Shown here piece after piece: positions 290 to 10,251 of a DNA stretch of 64,000 nucleotides. The DNA comes from Burkholderiales bacterium RIFCSPLOWO2_12_FULL_61_40 (GTDB taxonomy: Bacteria > Pseudomonadota > Gammaproteobacteria > Burkholderiales > Burkholderiaceae_C), in assembly GCA_001770935.1 (NCBI GenBank), contig MESI01000017.1:1-64000 (forward strand), written 5' to 3'. The notes under the pieces are model-generated. The model was not told the DNA's origin, made no database searches, and was given only the letters and a program-made list of their open reading frames with translations. Every line of letters starts with the position of its first letter. Within the stretch, counting starts at the first letter, position 1. Position numbers and translations under genes: made by a program.

Positions 290-577
290 TCAGGTATGAC
301 GCATTTCCGCATGCAGATTCACACCCAGTGCCCGCACCACTTTCATGACCGTTTCAAAGCGCGGTTTTGCACCGGGTGAGAGCGCCTTGTAAAGGCTTTC
401 GCGCCCCAAACCGGAGTCCTTTGCCAACTGAGCCATGCCGCGCGCACGCGCCACGGTTTTCACCGCGACAAGAAAAGCATCAGGGTCGGCGTCTTCCAGT
501 GCGGCAGTCAGATAGGCGGCAATCATTTCTTCGTTGTCGAGATAATCCGCCACGTCAAATGGGGTGAAATTGCTCAT
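290..577 (-). CDS. HigA-family antitoxin, helix-turn-helix
   Basis: A 95-residue antitoxin of the 'probable addiction module antidote' type (HigA2-like Xre family). The N-terminus MSNFTPFDVADYLDNEEMI is typical. The helix-turn-helix lies near residues 50-75 (AQLAKDSGLGRESLYKAL). It should bind and neutralise the toxin encoded four bases upstream on the same strand and autorepress the operon. The toxin-first order matches HigBA systems. The pair is divergent from a second module starting at 1061. Family assignment is confident; activity is inferred. Confidence 0.85.
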   Translation of the reverse strand: MSNFTPFDVADYLDNEEMIAAYLTAALEDADPDAFLVAVKTVARARGMAQLAKDSGLGRESLYKALSPGAKPRFETVMKVVRALGVNLHAEMRHT

Positions 578-581
578 GGTG

Positions 582-881
582 TTAGTCCTTGGGTAATGTG
601 CTCGCCATGGCTATGGCGCGCTTGATATCACGCTTCTGGGTTGATTTGTCACCGCCCAGCAGCAGCAAATAAATCACTGCACCGCGCCGGGTGAAATACA
701 CCCGGTAACCGGGGCCGTAGTGAATCCGCATCTCGGATACCCCTTCGCCCACCGGTTCGCAATCGCCAAAATTGCCGTTGGCAGCCCGATCAAGACGCAA
801 AGCAATTTGGGCTTTTCCAACCTGATCTTTCAGGCTGATCAGCCAAGCATCGAATTCATCGGATTTCTGAAAGATGTTCAT
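582..881 (-). CDS. HigB/RelE-type toxin (Gp49-like family)
   Basis: A RelE/ParE-superfamily toxin, probably a ribosome-dependent mRNA interferase. The track ORF begins at 944, but the family N-terminus is MNIFQKSDEFDAWLISLKDQ, so I place the start at 881 (99 residues). Family hallmarks are RLDRAANGNFGD, EGVSEMRIHYGPGYRVYF and LLGGDKSTQKRDI, the last with the basic C-terminal residues used on RNA. Its stop lies four bases before the antitoxin start, which implies coupled translation. Confidence 0.85.
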   Translation of the reverse strand: MNIFQKSDEFDAWLISLKDQVGKAQIALRLDRAANGNFGDCEPVGEGVSEMRIHYGPGYRVYFTRRGAVIYLLLLGGDKSTQKRDIKRAIAMASTLPKD

Positions 882-1060
882 GAACCAAGTGTATTCGTTT
901 GGATACTCAAAGCAAGAATTCTCAGGCAAGGACTTCCAGTCCATGCATCTGAATCATCGCAAACGGTATGACGAAAGCAGCACCGTGCTTGTTACGTATC
1001 AGACAAAACGCCAAAAGCAGGGTAAATTCGGACTATTCTGGTCTGAATTTGGAGGGGCTT

Positions 1061-1312
1061 ATGCAAACATGGCAAATGCAAACGGCGAAAGCGCGGTTTT
1101 CTGATGTGGTCAGGAGCGCAAAACAAGAGGGTCCACAAGACATCACGGTGCATGGCAAATCGGTGGCCGTAGTGGTGTCGCGCGAGATGTTTGACCGGCT
1201 CAGCGGCAATACCGAGTCTCTGCTTGAATTCATGCAAAAGTCACCGCTGTACGACCGCGATGACATTGAGTTTGAGCGCGACCCAAGCCTGGCGCGCGAA
1301 ATCGCGTTATGA
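1061..1312 (+). CDS. Phd/YefM-type antitoxin
   Basis: An 83-residue antitoxin. The start at 1061 has GGAGGGG seven bases upstream and gives MQTWQMQTAKARFSDVV, the usual Phd/YefM N-terminus; the track start at 968 is too long. The N-terminal half forms the DNA-binding fold and the acidic C-terminal tail (SPLYDRDDIEFERD) should wrap the toxin. Its stop overlaps the toxin start as ATGA (1309-1312), typical of a translationally coupled module. Autoregulation is expected from the family and not visible directly. Confidence 0.85.
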   Translation: MQTWQMQTAKARFSDVVRSAKQEGPQDITVHGKSVAVVVSREMFDRLSGNTESLLEFMQKSPLYDRDDIEFERDPSLAREIAL

Positions 1313-1731
1313 GTTACCTGATTGACACCAATGTGTTGTCTGAATTGCGCCGCAAGCAGCCCGATGCCAACGTCGTGGCGTGGTTGCATCAGCGTCCGCG
1401 CCAATCACTGTATTTGAGCGTGCTGACTCTGGGCGAAATTCGCAAAGGCATTGCGCGTTTGGATAGTGCGCAGGACGTTGCGCGGCGCACCCTTCTTCTC
1501 GATTGGCTCGAACAAGAACTCCCCACCTATTTTCTGGGGCGCGTGGTGCCCATTGATGCACAGGTCGCCGATTGTTGGGGCCGTTTGCAAAGCGATGCGG
1601 GCAGGCCTTTGCCAGCCATTGATGGTTTGCTCGCCGCTACAGCGCTTCAGCACAATCTGACCCTGGTCACCCGCAATGTCAAGAATTTTGTTGGCTTCAA
1701 CCTTGACATCATCAACCCTTGGGAGGGCTGA
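1309..1731 (+). CDS. VapC/FitB-type PIN-domain toxin
   Basis: A 140-residue PIN-domain ribonuclease. The first acidic residue sits in MSYLIDTNVLSEL, the second in LTLGEIRKGI, and the C-terminal acidic cluster is replaced by the FitB-like PAIDGLLAATAL...LVTRNVKNF segment. These metal-binding acids define VapC-type toxins that cut tRNA or rRNA. It overlaps the Phd-type antitoxin by four bases. A Phd-family antitoxin paired with a PIN toxin is a common non-canonical combination. Confidence 0.87.
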   Translation: MSYLIDTNVLSELRRKQPDANVVAWLHQRPRQSLYLSVLTLGEIRKGIARLDSAQDVARRTLLLDWLEQELPTYFLGRVVPIDAQVADCWGRLQSDAGRPLPAIDGLLAATALQHNLTLVTRNVKNFVGFNLDIINPWEG

Positions 1732-4592: not shown

Positions 4593-5435
4593 ATGGACGC
4601 CCAAACACTCTCCTTCCTCCTGCTTTGCAGTGCCGCACTGCTGTTCGTTTTGGCCATGCTGGGTCTGCCGTGGTGGGTGGCACGCCAGCGTGCACGGGTG
4701 CGCCAGCAGGCCTTTCCGGCGCAGTGGCGCAAGATTTTGCAGCGCCGGGTTCCCCTGGTGCGGCGCCTGCCCGCGGACCTGCAGCTGCAGCTCAAAAAGC
4801 ACATCCAGGTCTTCATTGCCGAAAAGGCCTTTATTGGCTGCGCGGGCCTGCGCATCACCGACGAGATGCGGGTGGTGATCGCCGCCCAGGCCTGCCTGCT
4901 GCTGCTGAACCGCCCCACCGATTTCTATCCCGGTTTGCGGCAGATTCTGGTGTACCCGGCCGCCTTTGTGGTGGACCGTACCCACACCGATGGCGCGGGG
5001 GTGCTGCAAGAGCAGCGCCAGGCGCTGGCCGGGGAGTCCTGGTCGCAGGGCCAGGTCATCCTGTCCTGGCAAGACAGCCTGGAAGGCGCCGCCGTGGCCG
5101 ACGATGGCCGCAATGTGGTGATCCACGAATTTGCCCACCAGCTGGACCAGGAAAACGGACCGGCCAACGGCGCGCCGCCGCCCGCGCCGGGCGTGCCAGA
5201 CCACAACCCGCAACGCTGGTCGCAGGTGTTCCACGCCGCGTTTGCCCAACTGCAGCGGCAGGCGCGTACCGGGCACGCGGGCCTGCTGGACCCCTATGGC
5301 GCCCAGGACCCGGCCGAGTTTTTTGCGGTGGCGTCGGAGGTGTTTTTTGAGCAACCCGAAGCGCTGCGCCTGGAGCACCCGGATTTGTACCGCGAGTTGG
5401 CCGGTTTTTACCGGGTGGACCCGGCCAGCTGGTAG
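4593..5435 (+). CDS. mtfA: MtfA-family zinc metallopeptidase (M90)
   Basis: 280 residues. An N-terminal membrane segment (LSFLLLCSAALLFVLAMLGL) precedes the MtfA domain, with zinc-binding HEFAH at residues 178-182 (VVIHEFAHQLDQENG) and a downstream acidic ligand region (DPAEFFAVASEVFFEQ). In E. coli MtfA binds the glucose repressor Mlc and has aminopeptidase activity. Betaproteobacterial homologues are similar in length and often have this N-terminal anchor. The physiological target here is unknown. Confidence 0.88.
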   Translation: MDAQTLSFLLLCSAALLFVLAMLGLPWWVARQRARVRQQAFPAQWRKILQRRVPLVRRLPADLQLQLKKHIQVFIAEKAFIGCAGLRITDEMRVVIAAQACLLLLNRPTDFYPGLRQILVYPAAFVVDRTHTDGAGVLQEQRQALAGESWSQGQVILSWQDSLEGAAVADDGRNVVIHEFAHQLDQENGPANGAPPPAPGVPDHNPQRWSQVFHAAFAQLQRQARTGHAGLLDPYGAQDPAEFFAVASEVFFEQPEALRLEHPDLYRELAGFYRVDPASW

Positions 5436-5580
5436 TCAGTGCGTCGCGTAGCCCATCGTTTGTGGTAGCCACAGCACGGTCTGTGGAAACACCGTCATGG
5501 CCAGCAGCAAGATCAGCATACCCGCCACCAATACGCACACCAGTTGCAGTAGTGCAGTGTTCAAAGCCGCAGCTTGCGCC
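5436..5580 (-). pseudogene. Truncated C-terminus of a TRAP-transporter DctM-type permease
   Basis: Read on the minus strand, the bases directly beyond the next gene's stop encode AALNTALLQLVCVLVAGM followed by LILLLAMTVFPQTVLWLPQ and TMGYATH, then a stop at 5436. This is the usual ending of a DctM large permease (last membrane helix, Pro, then LP). The rest of the gene is missing: upstream is the foreign TOPRIM/ATPase cassette, whose TAG stop is the codon immediately before the fragment. I infer that the cassette replaced or truncated a TRAP transporter gene. Confidence 0.55.
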
Positions 5581-6170
5581 TATCGCTCAATCTGCGGTTG
5601 GGCAAGTTGCAGCAATGCATCGTGAAACAACTTTGCACTTGGGCAAGCAGGGTGTAATGCGGCTTGAGTCAGATCAAAACCGTACAGCTTGCACATATTT
5701 CTGGCAAATATTGGTTTGCTATTGCCTGGACCGCGAACCTTCAGTTCAGCCGCCAAGGCTTTGAGCCTATCCCATGGCATTCCAGGCGTTGCTTCAGGAG
5801 CAATCTCAAAGGCATCATCCATCTTCAGCCACCGCCGCAGTGCACCGGTGTCCGCCAGAAACCAAGCTTCGATAGCCTTTACAGCAACAAAAATTAAATT
5901 TGTATGTTCCAAGCCAATTCGGGCTTTGACGGTTTCTACATCGGGTGCAGTCTCCAAGTCCGTCAAGATCACGATGTGGTCTACATTGGCCATTCTCAAC
6001 CGCGCGACCGACGGGAGTATGTTCTGGGGCAACAAGTTGCCACCACCCCTGGCATCAATAACAGGAGAGCACACCTCGACACCGTTGTTCTTGGCGAATG
6101 CCTTAAACCGATCCGACTCAATGAGTATTTTTTCGGTATCCCCCTCCACGATGAAGCCAACCTTCACCAT
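5580..6170 (-). CDS. TOPRIM-like protein, partner of the adjacent ATPase
   Basis: 196 residues. The N-terminus VGFIVEGDTEKILI carries the EGxTE-type motif with the conserved TOPRIM glutamate (Glu9), and HIVILTDLE (71-73) supplies the DxD-like acidic motif. The rest is alpha/beta with no membrane segment. Its start overlaps the ATPase gene's end by seven bases (ATGGTGA), so the two are translationally coupled. In OLD-family nucleases these two modules are fused; in PARIS and Gabija they are split or rearranged. A metal-dependent nuclease role in phage or plasmid defence is my inference. It might belong to a named DUF family that I cannot confirm. Confidence 0.7.
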   Translation of the reverse strand: MVKVGFIVEGDTEKILIESDRFKAFAKNNGVEVCSPVIDARGGGNLLPQNILPSVARLRMANVDHIVILTDLETAPDVETVKARIGLEHTNLIFVAVKAIEAWFLADTGALRRWLKMDDAFEIAPEATPGMPWDRLKALAAELKVRGPGNSKPIFARNMCKLYGFDLTQAALHPACPSAKLFHDALLQLAQPQIER

Positions 6171-7279
6171 GGCAACCCACCGTCAAACAGGTTCATCAAC
6201 CATGCCGTGTCAAGGTTCAACTGTCCAATACCAGCGCTGTGCGTGGCGGCATTTTTCGCCACAGTCTTGCCGTCCAATTTATTGACCAACCAGAGTTCGT
6301 CGATGCGAGAGGCACGCACCAGTGACTCGCTGTGCGTTGTGACAAAGACGGGGTGCTCTGGCGAGGCTTTGTCACGCATCAAGTCAGCCAGTGCTTCAAT
6401 CCCTTTGGGATGGATGCCCCGCTCAGGCTCCTCAATCAGCGTGATGCCGTAGCCGGAGGATCGGCTCAACACTGCCGTCATGATGCAAAGCGCATAGATG
6501 GTTCCGTCAGAAATCAGATTCGCCGGAAAGTGCGGCTTGATGCCAAGTTCTTTGAACTTGATGACCGTGCCACCGCTCAATCTTTCAGGCGCTGTGTGTA
6601 CCTGCTCCATTCCCGGTACCAACAGCGTCATCCAGTCCGTGACCTGCGCACGAAATTCAGCTTCCTTTTCTAGCGACGCTAGCATGGTGGCGACGTTATG
6701 TCCGTGGGAATCCAATTCGGTAGCGTCCGCACTCGATCCATCGGGTTCTTTTGCCCCCATCGGATCAAACCGAAAAACCTGGACATTGGTCAAATAGTGA
6801 TATAGCGGCACAAGTCCTTGTGTGAACATCAAGGCTGAAACGTCAGACGGAAATCCTTCAACTAACGACTGAGTTCCATCTTCCTTGATGAGCGTTGGAA
6901 CTTCGCCTTTCTTGCGAATAAGAACCGGCTTCCCCGCCACGGTTAACTTTTCCTCCAGCAGCGGGCTGGTGTCCATCTCATGAATTTTCAAGCCGTAGGT
7001 GAGCTTTTGACCATTCATGGTCGCATGAATGTCAAATTCAAAGGTGCGCGTGTTGTTCTTGCGCAGCTTGTAACAGTGAATTTGTGAAAAACCTCGGAAC
7101 TTGCGAATGGCCTTCACCGCGCCCAGTTCAATCACTGTGCTCACAAATGCCAAAGCATCCATCAAATTGCTTTTGCCTGAGCCATTGGGGCCAGCGAATA
7201 CGCTGTAAGGCTTGAGCTGTTCCAGCTTCAAGCGCGCCAGGCTCTTAAAACCCGCTATTTCAATATGATCGATGTTCAT
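6164..7279 (-). CDS. OLD/RecF-like AAA_21 ATPase (putative defence ATPase)
   Basis: 371 residues. FKSLARLKLEQLKPYSVF and Walker A GPNGSGKS (30-37) open the domain. The ABC signature-like LISDGT is near 255, Walker B ITLIEEPERGIHP near 279-291 (catalytic Glu pair), and the H-switch TTHSES near 314. The middle (~60-240) is a variable coiled or lobe region. This is the stand-alone ABC/SMC-type ATPase found in OLD-like and other defence operons. The start has AAGGAAGA just upstream and overlaps the stop of a small leading ORF by ATGA. GC content is visibly lower than in neighbouring alaS, suggesting transfer. Confidence 0.85.
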   Translation of the reverse strand: MNIDHIEIAGFKSLARLKLEQLKPYSVFAGPNGSGKSNLMDALAFVSTVIELGAVKAIRKFRGFSQIHCYKLRKNNTRTFEFDIHATMNGQKLTYGLKIHEMDTSPLLEEKLTVAGKPVLIRKKGEVPTLIKEDGTQSLVEGFPSDVSALMFTQGLVPLYHYLTNVQVFRFDPMGAKEPDGSSADATELDSHGHNVATMLASLEKEAEFRAQVTDWMTLLVPGMEQVHTAPERLSGGTVIKFKELGIKPHFPANLISDGTIYALCIMTAVLSRSSGYGITLIEEPERGIHPKGIEALADLMRDKASPEHPVFVTTHSESLVRASRIDELWLVNKLDGKTVAKNAATHSAGIGQLNLDTAWLMNLFDGGLPW

Positions 7280-7512
7280 TCTTCTTCCTTGCCACCCGCC
7301 ACCGCCGTCGCTCTCACCAGCAAATCGCCAAACCTAGCATAGTTCACTTTAGTCCCTTTCCCTTCAGCCCCTGCCAGAGGGGCCAGGCGCAGCGCAAAAC
7401 CTTGCCGGCCAGCAGCACAAAGAGGAGGTACGCCCACCCACATTTTGGCGTGCCAGTCGTCGGGCACCGCAGGGGTAGAGATGTGCAGCATGGTTTGGGC
7501 CTGCGCCACCAT
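7276..7512 (-). CDS. Small ORF leading the ATPase/TOPRIM cassette
   Basis: A 78-residue frame (MVAQAQTMLHISTPAVP... to ...RATAVAGGKEEE) whose TGA overlaps the ATPase ATG as ATGA. GGAG lies nine bases before the ATG at 7512; an alternative ATG is at 7527. In the ORF track it is hidden as the tail of the 892-codon alaS shadow. GC-rich third positions and the coupled stop/start favour a real gene. No family or motif is recognised; it has no signal peptide and no membrane helix. It could be an antitoxin-like, sensor or leader peptide, or spurious. Confidence 0.4.
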   Translation of the reverse strand: MVAQAQTMLHISTPAVPDDWHAKMWVGVPPLCAAGRQGFALRLAPLAGAEGKGTKVNYARFGDLLVRATAVAGGKEEE

Positions 7513-7626
7513 GAACTTTGTCTCCATCCATGAATTGGGCGACTTTGCGCGATGCGCAGCGCGCGCCGCAGGCAGGCGGGGGATAATACCCAGTTCCATT
7601 GAACCCCTGCCAGAAGAACCCCTGAC

Positions 7627-10251
7627 ATGACCCAGCCCGTAATGAGTGTTGCCGACATTCGCAAAATCTTCCTCGACTTCTTCGCCTCCAAGGGCCACAC
7701 GGTGGTGGCGAGCAGCCCGCTGGTGCCCGGCAACGACCCCACGCTGATGTTCACCAACTCCGGCATGGTCCAGTTCAAGGACGTGTTCCTGGGCACCGAC
7801 AAGCGCTCTTACGTGCGCGCCGCCTCGGTCCAGGCCTGCCTGCGCGCCGGTGGCAAGCACAACGACCTGGAAAACGTGGGCTACACCGCGCGCCACCACA
7901 CCTTCTTCGAAATGCTGGGCAACTGGAGTTTTGGCGACTATTTCAAGCGCGACTCGCTCAAATGGGGCTGGGAGCTGCTGACCCAGGTCTACGGCCTGCC
8001 CGCCGACAAGCTGCTGGCCACGGTCTACATCGACGACCAGGAAGCCTACGACATCTGGACCCAAGAGATTGGCCTGCCGCCCGAGCGTGTGATCCGGATT
8101 GGCGACAACAAGGGCAAAAAATACGCGTCCGACAACTTCTGGATGATGGCCGACACCGGCCCCTGCGGCCCGTGCTCGGAAATCTTTTACGACCACGGTG
8201 ACCACATCCCCGGCGGACCTCCCGGCAGCCCCGGTGAAGACGGCGACCGCTTCATCGAAATCTGGAACCACGTGTTCATGCAGTTCGACATGCAGCCCGA
8301 TGGCAGCCTGGTCAAGCTGCCCGCGCCCTGCGTGGACACCGGCATGGGCCTGGAGCGCCTGGCCGCCATCCTGCAGCACGTGCACAGCAACTACGAAATC
8401 GACATTTTCCAGGGCCTGATTGCCGCCGCCGCCCGCGAAACCGGCACCGCCGACCTGTCGCACCCTTCGCTCAAGGTGATTGCCGACCACATCCGCGCCA
8501 CCGCCTTCCTGGTGAGCGACGGTGTGATCCCCAGCAACGAAGGCCGGGGTTATGTGCAGCGCCGCATCATCCGCCGCGCCATCCGCCACGGCTACAAGCT
8601 GGGCAAAAAGACCCCGTTTTTCCACAAGTTGGTGGGCGATCTGGCCGCGCTGATGGGTGAGGCCTACCCCCACCTGGCGGCGCAGCAGGCGCGTATTACC
8701 GAAGTGCTGCGGGTGGAAGAAGAGCGTTTCTTTGAAACGCTGGCTACCGGCATGGAGATTCTGGACGTGGCATTGCAAGGCGGCGTCAAGCTGCTGCCCG
8801 GCGACGTGGCCTTCAAGCTGCACGACACCTACGGCTTTCCGCTCGACTTGTCCGCCGATGTGTGCCGCGAAAACAGTGTGGAAGTGGACGAAGCCGGTTT
8901 CCATGCCGCCATGGAGAAGCAAAAGGCCGCTGGCCGCGCGGCTGGCAAATTCAAGATGGACCGCGCGCTGGACTACAGCGGCGAGGGCAACGACTTCGTG
9001 GGTTACGAACAGCTCACGCAAGCTACAAAAATCGTAGCGCTCTACGCAGACGGTACGCCGGTGAGCAGCCTGAAAGCCGGTCAAAACGGCGTGGTGGTAC
9101 TGGATGCCACCCCGTTTTACGCCGAGAGCGGCGGCCAGGTGGGCGACGAGGGTGCCATCTTCTGCGACCACGGCCTGTTTGAGGTGGCTGACACCCAAAA
9201 GATCAAGGCCGATGTGTTTGGCCAGCATGGCATCCTGGCCACTGGCAGCCTCAGCGTGGGTGATGCGGTCACCGCCCATGTGAACACGGTCATCCGCGCC
9301 GCCACCCAGCGCAACCACTCGGTCACCCATTTGATGCACAAAGCCCTGCGCGAAGTGCTGGGCGAGCATGTGCAGCAAAAGGGCTCCCTGGTCAACGCTG
9401 ACCGTACCCGTTTCGACTTCACCCACAACGCCCCGGTCACCGATGCGCAAATCCGCGAGATCGAAGTGCGTGTGAACGCCGAAATTTTGGCCAACGCCGC
9501 CACCCAAGCCCGCCTGATGGACATCGAAGCGGCCAAGCAAACCGGCGCCATGATGCTGTTTGGCGAGAAGTACGGCGAGACCGTGCGTGTGCTCGACATT
9601 GGCAGCACCACCGAACTCTGCGGCGGCACCCATGTAGCGCGCACCGGCGACATTGGCCTGTTCAAGGTGGTGGGCGAGGGCGGCGTGGCCGCCGGTGTGC
9701 GCCGTATCGAGGCCGTGACCGGCCAAAACGCGCTGGCCTATTTGCAGAACCTGGAAGACACCGTGGGCGTGGCGGCGGCCACCCTCAAGGCCCCGGTGGC
9801 CGAGCTGACCAGCCGCCTCGGGCAGGTGGTCGACCATGTGAAAGCACTGGAAAAAGAAGTGGCTGCGCTCAAGGGCAAGCTGGCCTCCGCCCAGGGCGAC
9901 GAACTGGTAACCCAGGCGCTGGAGATCAACGGCGTCAAGTTGCTGGCTGCCCAACTGGACGGCGCCGACACCAAGACCCTGCGCGAGACCATGGACAAGC
10001 TCAAGGACAAGCTCAAAACCGCGGTCATCGTGTTGGCCGCCGTGGACGGCGACAAGGTGCAGCTGGCCGTGGGCGTCACGCTAGATACCACGGGCAAGGT
10101 CAAGGCCGGTGAACTGGTCAACTTCCTGGCAGCGCAGGTGGGCGGCAAGGGCGGCGGCAAGGCCGACATGGCCATGGCCGGTGGCACCGAGCCCTCCAAA
10201 CTGCCCGCAGCCCTGACCAGCGTGCAGGCCTGGGTGGCAGGCAAGCTTTGA
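7627..10251 (+). CDS. alaS: Alanyl-tRNA synthetase
   Basis: 874 residues, full length for the family. The class II catalytic core is clear ([38 protein letters not shown]). The editing domain has the zinc-binding HxxxH ([12 protein letters not shown], ~residue 563) and CGGTH (~664). The C-terminal DHHA1/C-Ala domain is glycine-rich ([15 protein letters not shown]). It charges tRNA-Ala and clears mischarged Ser/Gly. A short stretch near 9012-9045 resembles half of the dispersed 55 bp repeat. Confidence 0.98.

Follow-up and report, generated by a model that had tools for sequence, protein, structure and literature searches.

What family does a small two-gene cassette on the minus strand of a 64,000-nucleotide stretch of a Burkholderiales genome (the window) belong to, and how did it come to lie between mtfA and alaS, amid the remains of a transporter operon? 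The answer favored here, with good though not full confidence, is that the pair is a HEC-01 module that was once embedded after the pglX gene of a BREX-1 system and now stands alone, and that it would act as an ATPase-controlled TOPRIM nuclease by analogy with PARIS.

Identity of the gene pair

The cassette consists of the following elements:

6164-7279, minus strand: HEC-01A, an OLD/ABC-type ATPase of 371 aa (PADLOC and Pfam)
5580-6170, minus strand: HEC-01B, a TOPRIM-like protein of 196 aa (PADLOC, Pfam, AlphaFold2 model and Foldseek)
6164-6170, minus strand: 7-nt overlap ATGGTGA (CCATGGTGA) between the end of A and the start of B, which recurs in homologues L012 to L075

Both open reading frames are intact, internal stops being absent from either, and the start codon of B lies inside the last codons of A. 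The A homologues checked, some only about 35% identical, keep the overlap and the ...GG(L/V)PW C-terminus, GTG or TTG standing in for the ATG of the overlap in two of them; chance is excluded as the origin of the arrangement, since full-length homologues sharing 35-84% identity exist and the gene order is conserved. The motifs of A, comprising the Walker A (GPNGSGKS), a signature-like sequence (LISDGT), the Walker B (LIEEPE) and the H-loop (TTHS), are largely invariant among 14 homologues, with the first Ser of GSGKS changed to Ala or Thr in some. B contains FIVEGDTEK and ILTDLE, with the acids E9, E13, D71 and E73; in the same number of homologues, G10 and D71 are invariant, E9 is present in 13 of 14, and the third TOPRIM acid is variable (E73 here, D or G in some). 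These ORFs and motifs confirm the proposal, made in the initial annotation, of two coupled genes encoding an OLD-type ABC ATPase and a separate TOPRIM-like partner. The copy without E9 is that of Sphaerotilus (L017:11113-11709), where an Ala takes its place and VAGATEK replaces VEGDTEK; this loss of the first TOPRIM Glu may indicate that catalysis is dispensable in some copies. Compared with the copy in L019, pN and pS are 0.09 and 0.77 for A, and 0.18 and 0.77 for B, with synonymous sites saturated in both comparisons, and both genes have been under strong purifying selection since the split from L019.

Against the PADLOC models, A matches HEC-01A (PDLC04176; E 6e-157, 520.7 bits) over residues 1-371 of 371, and B matches HEC-01B (PDLC04191; E 5e-80, 266 bits) over positions 3-189 of 192. 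The other PADLOC matches of A, namely AriA (92.5 bits), AbiLi (78 bits), Old and GajA, are far weaker, and B gives no match to an AriB or AbiLii model at E <= 1. In Pfam, A is recognized as AAA_21 (6.6e-28), with RecF/SMC-like N-terminal motifs, and B matches DUF4276 at 2.1e-5, under the gathering score. Because both HEC-01 models are matched at about full length, with AriA, AbiLi, Old and GajA far behind, the pair is, by sequence similarity, a member of HEC-01. Its description as uncharacterised, in the sense of unnamed, has to be dropped, both proteins matching a named PADLOC candidate; the HEC systems were reportedly defined in a 2024 preprint by Payne et al. HEC stands for Hma-embedded candidate (PMC12111858), and HEC-01 has been predicted in Desulfovibrio piger (PMC12724379). 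The literature searched yielded no phage assay of HEC-01.

PDB sequence searches with B alone and with the B profile gave nothing meaningful, and for this reason fold comparison was used. An AlphaFold2 model of B based on five aligned homologues reached moderate confidence (mean pLDDT 71.6, pTM 0.71), and its sole Foldseek match in the PDB at E <= 0.001 was 6nk8_A, from a B. pseudomallei OLD protein, to the C-terminal region (E 4.5e-4, probability 1.00, TM-score 0.44); the next match was the second chain of 6nk8. That structure shows the Toprim domain of a Class 2 OLD nuclease on its own (PMC10568477). A TOPRIM-like fold of B is supported by this model, and the doubt for which structure prediction had been suggested as a check is largely answered.

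The window pair shares with HEC-01 the two-gene layout of an ATPase and a TOPRIM-like protein. The name refers to embedding in Hma, whereas the window copy is now embedded in nothing, its relatives are found in BREX, and the gene leftover beside it comes from BREX and not from Hma. PARIS also combines an OLD-type ABC ATPase with a separate TOPRIM gene and also occurs inside BREX islands (PMC11341690), but it was rejected because AriA is not the best family for A, by the scores given above, and the AriB model is absent for B. HEC-04 / IbfA, for which anti-phage activity has been reported (PMC12111858), is likewise built of ABC ATPase and TOPRIM modules, fused however in one protein. OLD Class 1 and the GajA protein of Gabija resemble the pair in ATPase type and TOPRIM fold, the best fold match of B being itself a Class 2 OLD protein, but the modules are fused there and split in the window; OLD Class 1 was rejected because ATPase and TOPRIM lie on two ORFs, and Gabija because the GajA fusion is absent and the GajB helicase is not adjacent, the neighbouring genes being mtfA and alaS. 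AbiL was rejected as well, since the resemblance of A to AbiLi is weak, far weaker than that to HEC-01A, and B has no AbiLii match. With separate ORFs, no AriB model and no GajB alongside, the initial statement that the pair has neither the OLD fusion nor a PARIS or Gabija partner holds.

Predicted function

The products of the two overlapping genes would probably form one complex, in which, by analogy with PARIS, the HEC-01A ATPase would sense that an infection is under way, perhaps through a BREX inhibitor made by the phage, and would then release or activate the TOPRIM nuclease HEC-01B, which in turn would cut nucleic acid and abort the infection. In PARIS, AriA senses Ocr and activates the TOPRIM nuclease AriB, which cleaves tRNA, and OLD-ABC/TOPRIM pairs occur in the BREX loci of many taxa (PMC12839542). 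One PARIS embedded in a Salmonella BREX was inactive in the assays tried (PMC11341690), so that embedding is no proof of activity. The pair is probably a functional defence module; the defence role put forward initially is judged probable, and the candidate itself is one already named, HEC-01.

The pair is present in 1 of 151 sampled genomes of its own family, in 7 of 399 from its order and, with the PADLOC model, in 2 of 399 genomes of the phylum. Such scatter, together with the small size and overlap of the two genes, the standalone copies amid housekeeping genes and the PDB entries that label AriA of PARIS as 'AriA antitoxin', would also suit a toxin-antitoxin-like or addiction module, in which the ATPase restrains a TOPRIM toxin and the pair is kept for its own stability and not for phage defence. 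This is unlikely, given the repeated placement of the pair in BREX operons beside other ATPase-TOPRIM candidates (see below), and the two readings are in any case compatible, as PARIS-type systems act as guarded toxins.

Landing site and probable BREX ancestry

The DNA around the gene pair in the window contains the remains of other genes:

5439-5501, minus strand: C-terminal remnant of the TRAP large permease gene dctM, about 21 residues (AMTVFPQTVLWLPQTMGYATH, then the stop; congener match)
7435-7512, minus strand: N-terminal remnant of the TRAP solute-binding gene dctP, about 26 residues (MVAQAQTMLHISTPAVPDDWHAKMW; congener match)
7276-7356, minus strand: 3'-end remnant of BREX-1 pglX, 26 codons (GTKVNYARFGDLLVRATAVAGGKEEE, then the stop; PglX C-terminus match)
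7276-7512, minus strand: in-frame dctP'-pglX' ORF of 78 codons that ends on the start codon of A (translation)

The short dctP and dctM peptides were not recognized by Pfam, a plasmid search with them also gave nothing, and their identity was established through congeneric genomes. The dctP remnant is 62-76% identical to open frames of 345-464 aa in 15 congeners, and the dctM remnant, over 21 aa, shares 81% and 95% of its residues with the dctM ends of L092 and L094; in G546, to which L092 belongs, dctP-dctQ-dctM is intact and lies near alaS. Synteny with a close relative, G554 (L046), whose mtfA and alaS are about 95% identical, is lost at window positions 5443 and 7508. The remnants of dctP and dctM on its two sides indicate that the cassette replaced most of the dctPQM operon, so that the displacement of a transporter gene noted initially is right and larger than claimed, the start of dctP and the end of dctM being what remains. 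In G554, where L046:5199-5723 is what we take to be a dctP piece fused to a dctM piece, the transporter appears to have been broken independently, by another deletion, and the replaced operon would have been already decaying or dispensable. At 51.5%, the GC content of the pair is below the 61.2% of the whole window, as the claim of lower GC had it, and horizontal acquisition of the cassette was also judged right. Two toxin-antitoxin-like pairs lie about 4 kb off, one formed by an HI1420-type antidote and a Gp49-like protein (290-944, minus strand) and the other by a Phd/YefM and a PIN protein (968-1731, plus strand).

The pglX remnant, which was absent from the initial annotation and is a new finding, lies immediately upstream of A, with a stop that shares nucleotides with A's start codon; 13 of its 26 residues are identical to the extreme PglX C-terminus of L019 (E 0.003 when 64 kb were searched). 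Compared with PglX tails, the 153 nt upstream of A score 80, whereas the highest score among 3,970 pieces drawn at random from the window is 40, and the upstream regions of eight standalone pairs score 21-31, corresponding to no tail. On this resemblance, the remnant, although only 26 codons long, is read as a leftover of BREX pglX. Remnants of pglZ, brxL and brxC were not found across the 64-kb window. The 78-codon ORF may serve as a leader through which translation is coupled to A; a scan of 5380-7680 found no sigma-70-like promoter.

BREX, to which the initial annotation made no link, is the setting of several relatives of the pair. In E. coli, a homologous pair is carried by 26 of 5,426 complete genomes (20 chromosomal and 6 plasmid copies), and in 26 of 26 the match overlaps genes of a BREX-1 operon annotated as pglX and pglZ; the gene maps of two plasmids (L012 and L013) give the order brxC-pglX-A-B-pglZ-brxL, with the genes abutting. 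These conjugative or mobilizable plasmids, one of them named pX14-3-NDM, have an HEC-01-bearing BREX-1. In two betaproteobacterial relatives, Limnohabitans L016 and the MAG L019, the latter being the nearest (84% identical in A), the pair is found, along with the ATPase pairs PDC-M38 and PDC-M25, in the interval from pglX to pglZ-brxL, so that three ATPase-TOPRIM-type modules occupy L016:4673-8443 and L019:9153-13045. The interval from pglX to HEC-01 in L019 also includes, at 5015-7259, genes for two further proteins, one of the P-loop type (MIKRLVIVGGPNGSGKS) and the other a YhcG/DUF1016 PD-(D/E)XK protein, and in L077 a different ATPase starts on the pglX stop codon.

Standalone copies make up most of the relatives sampled from genomes, which indicates that BREX is not required for function: in about nine (L017, L018/L069 and L070-L076), the retrieved flanks, of up to about 10 kb where the contig permits, are free of BREX genes, that of L076 being cut short by the end of its contig. 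The L018/L069 pair follows a polA-like gene, and that of L017 presumably follows trpE. The search of viral contigs gave no clean phage copy of the pair; on a phage-like contig (IMGVR_UViG_3300044729_001303; L058/L060), an intact HEC-01A is flanked on both sides by pieces of B (L060:6377-8114), which is probably a chimeric assembly. HEC-01 is associated with another defence system through its relatives in BREX and the pglX remnant in the window, with many other copies standing alone.

In a small, midpoint-rooted tree of A, the window copy groups with L019 (98/95), next to L016 and the standalone L017 (100/100), and the E. coli BREX copies are placed elsewhere. The pglX tail and the tree together point to an exit of the window copy from BREX. 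Recruitment into BREX seems to have happened separately in the two embedded lineages, the number of moves being tentative with a tree of this size and rooting. The flanks devoid of BREX genes would also be expected if the pair were a standalone mobile HEC-01 cassette that had never been in BREX and whose pglX-like tail was a chance resemblance. Such a history is improbable, however: the tail scores above the null maximum, is placed and oriented as a pglX end should be, its stop falling on the start codon of A, and has no counterpart in front of the eight standalone pairs compared, and the nearest relative, L019, sits inside BREX. A DNA-repair or SMC/RecF-like housekeeping pair lacking an immune role, which the N-terminal motifs of the ATPase could suggest, is highly improbable in view of the rarity of the pair in its family and order and its presence on conjugative plasmids and in BREX islands.

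Implications for HEC-01

In the same genome as the window (G000), contig C5 harbors a divergent BREX locus at about 37-51 kb (L056 and L057), in which identity to the query proteins is 46% for BrxL and about 26% for PglX and BrxC, and the PglZ match is weak. One tentative idea, doubtful for now, is that embedded ATPase-TOPRIM modules such as HEC-01 circulate between BREX and a standalone state via the pglX-pglZ junction, and that the orphans might act as free guards detecting phage inhibitors of BREX or restriction, possibly serving the contig C5 BREX in trans. HEC-01 was named from its embedding in other defence systems, and the copies described here link one of its subfamilies with the pglX-pglZ junction of BREX-1, which can carry up to three different ATPase-TOPRIM pairs. 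If the window pair was indeed once embedded after pglX, the pglX tail would be a datable trace of the exit of a module from BREX and of its solo survival, and, if the orphan still protects, HEC-01 would be a system in its own right, not an accessory of BREX.
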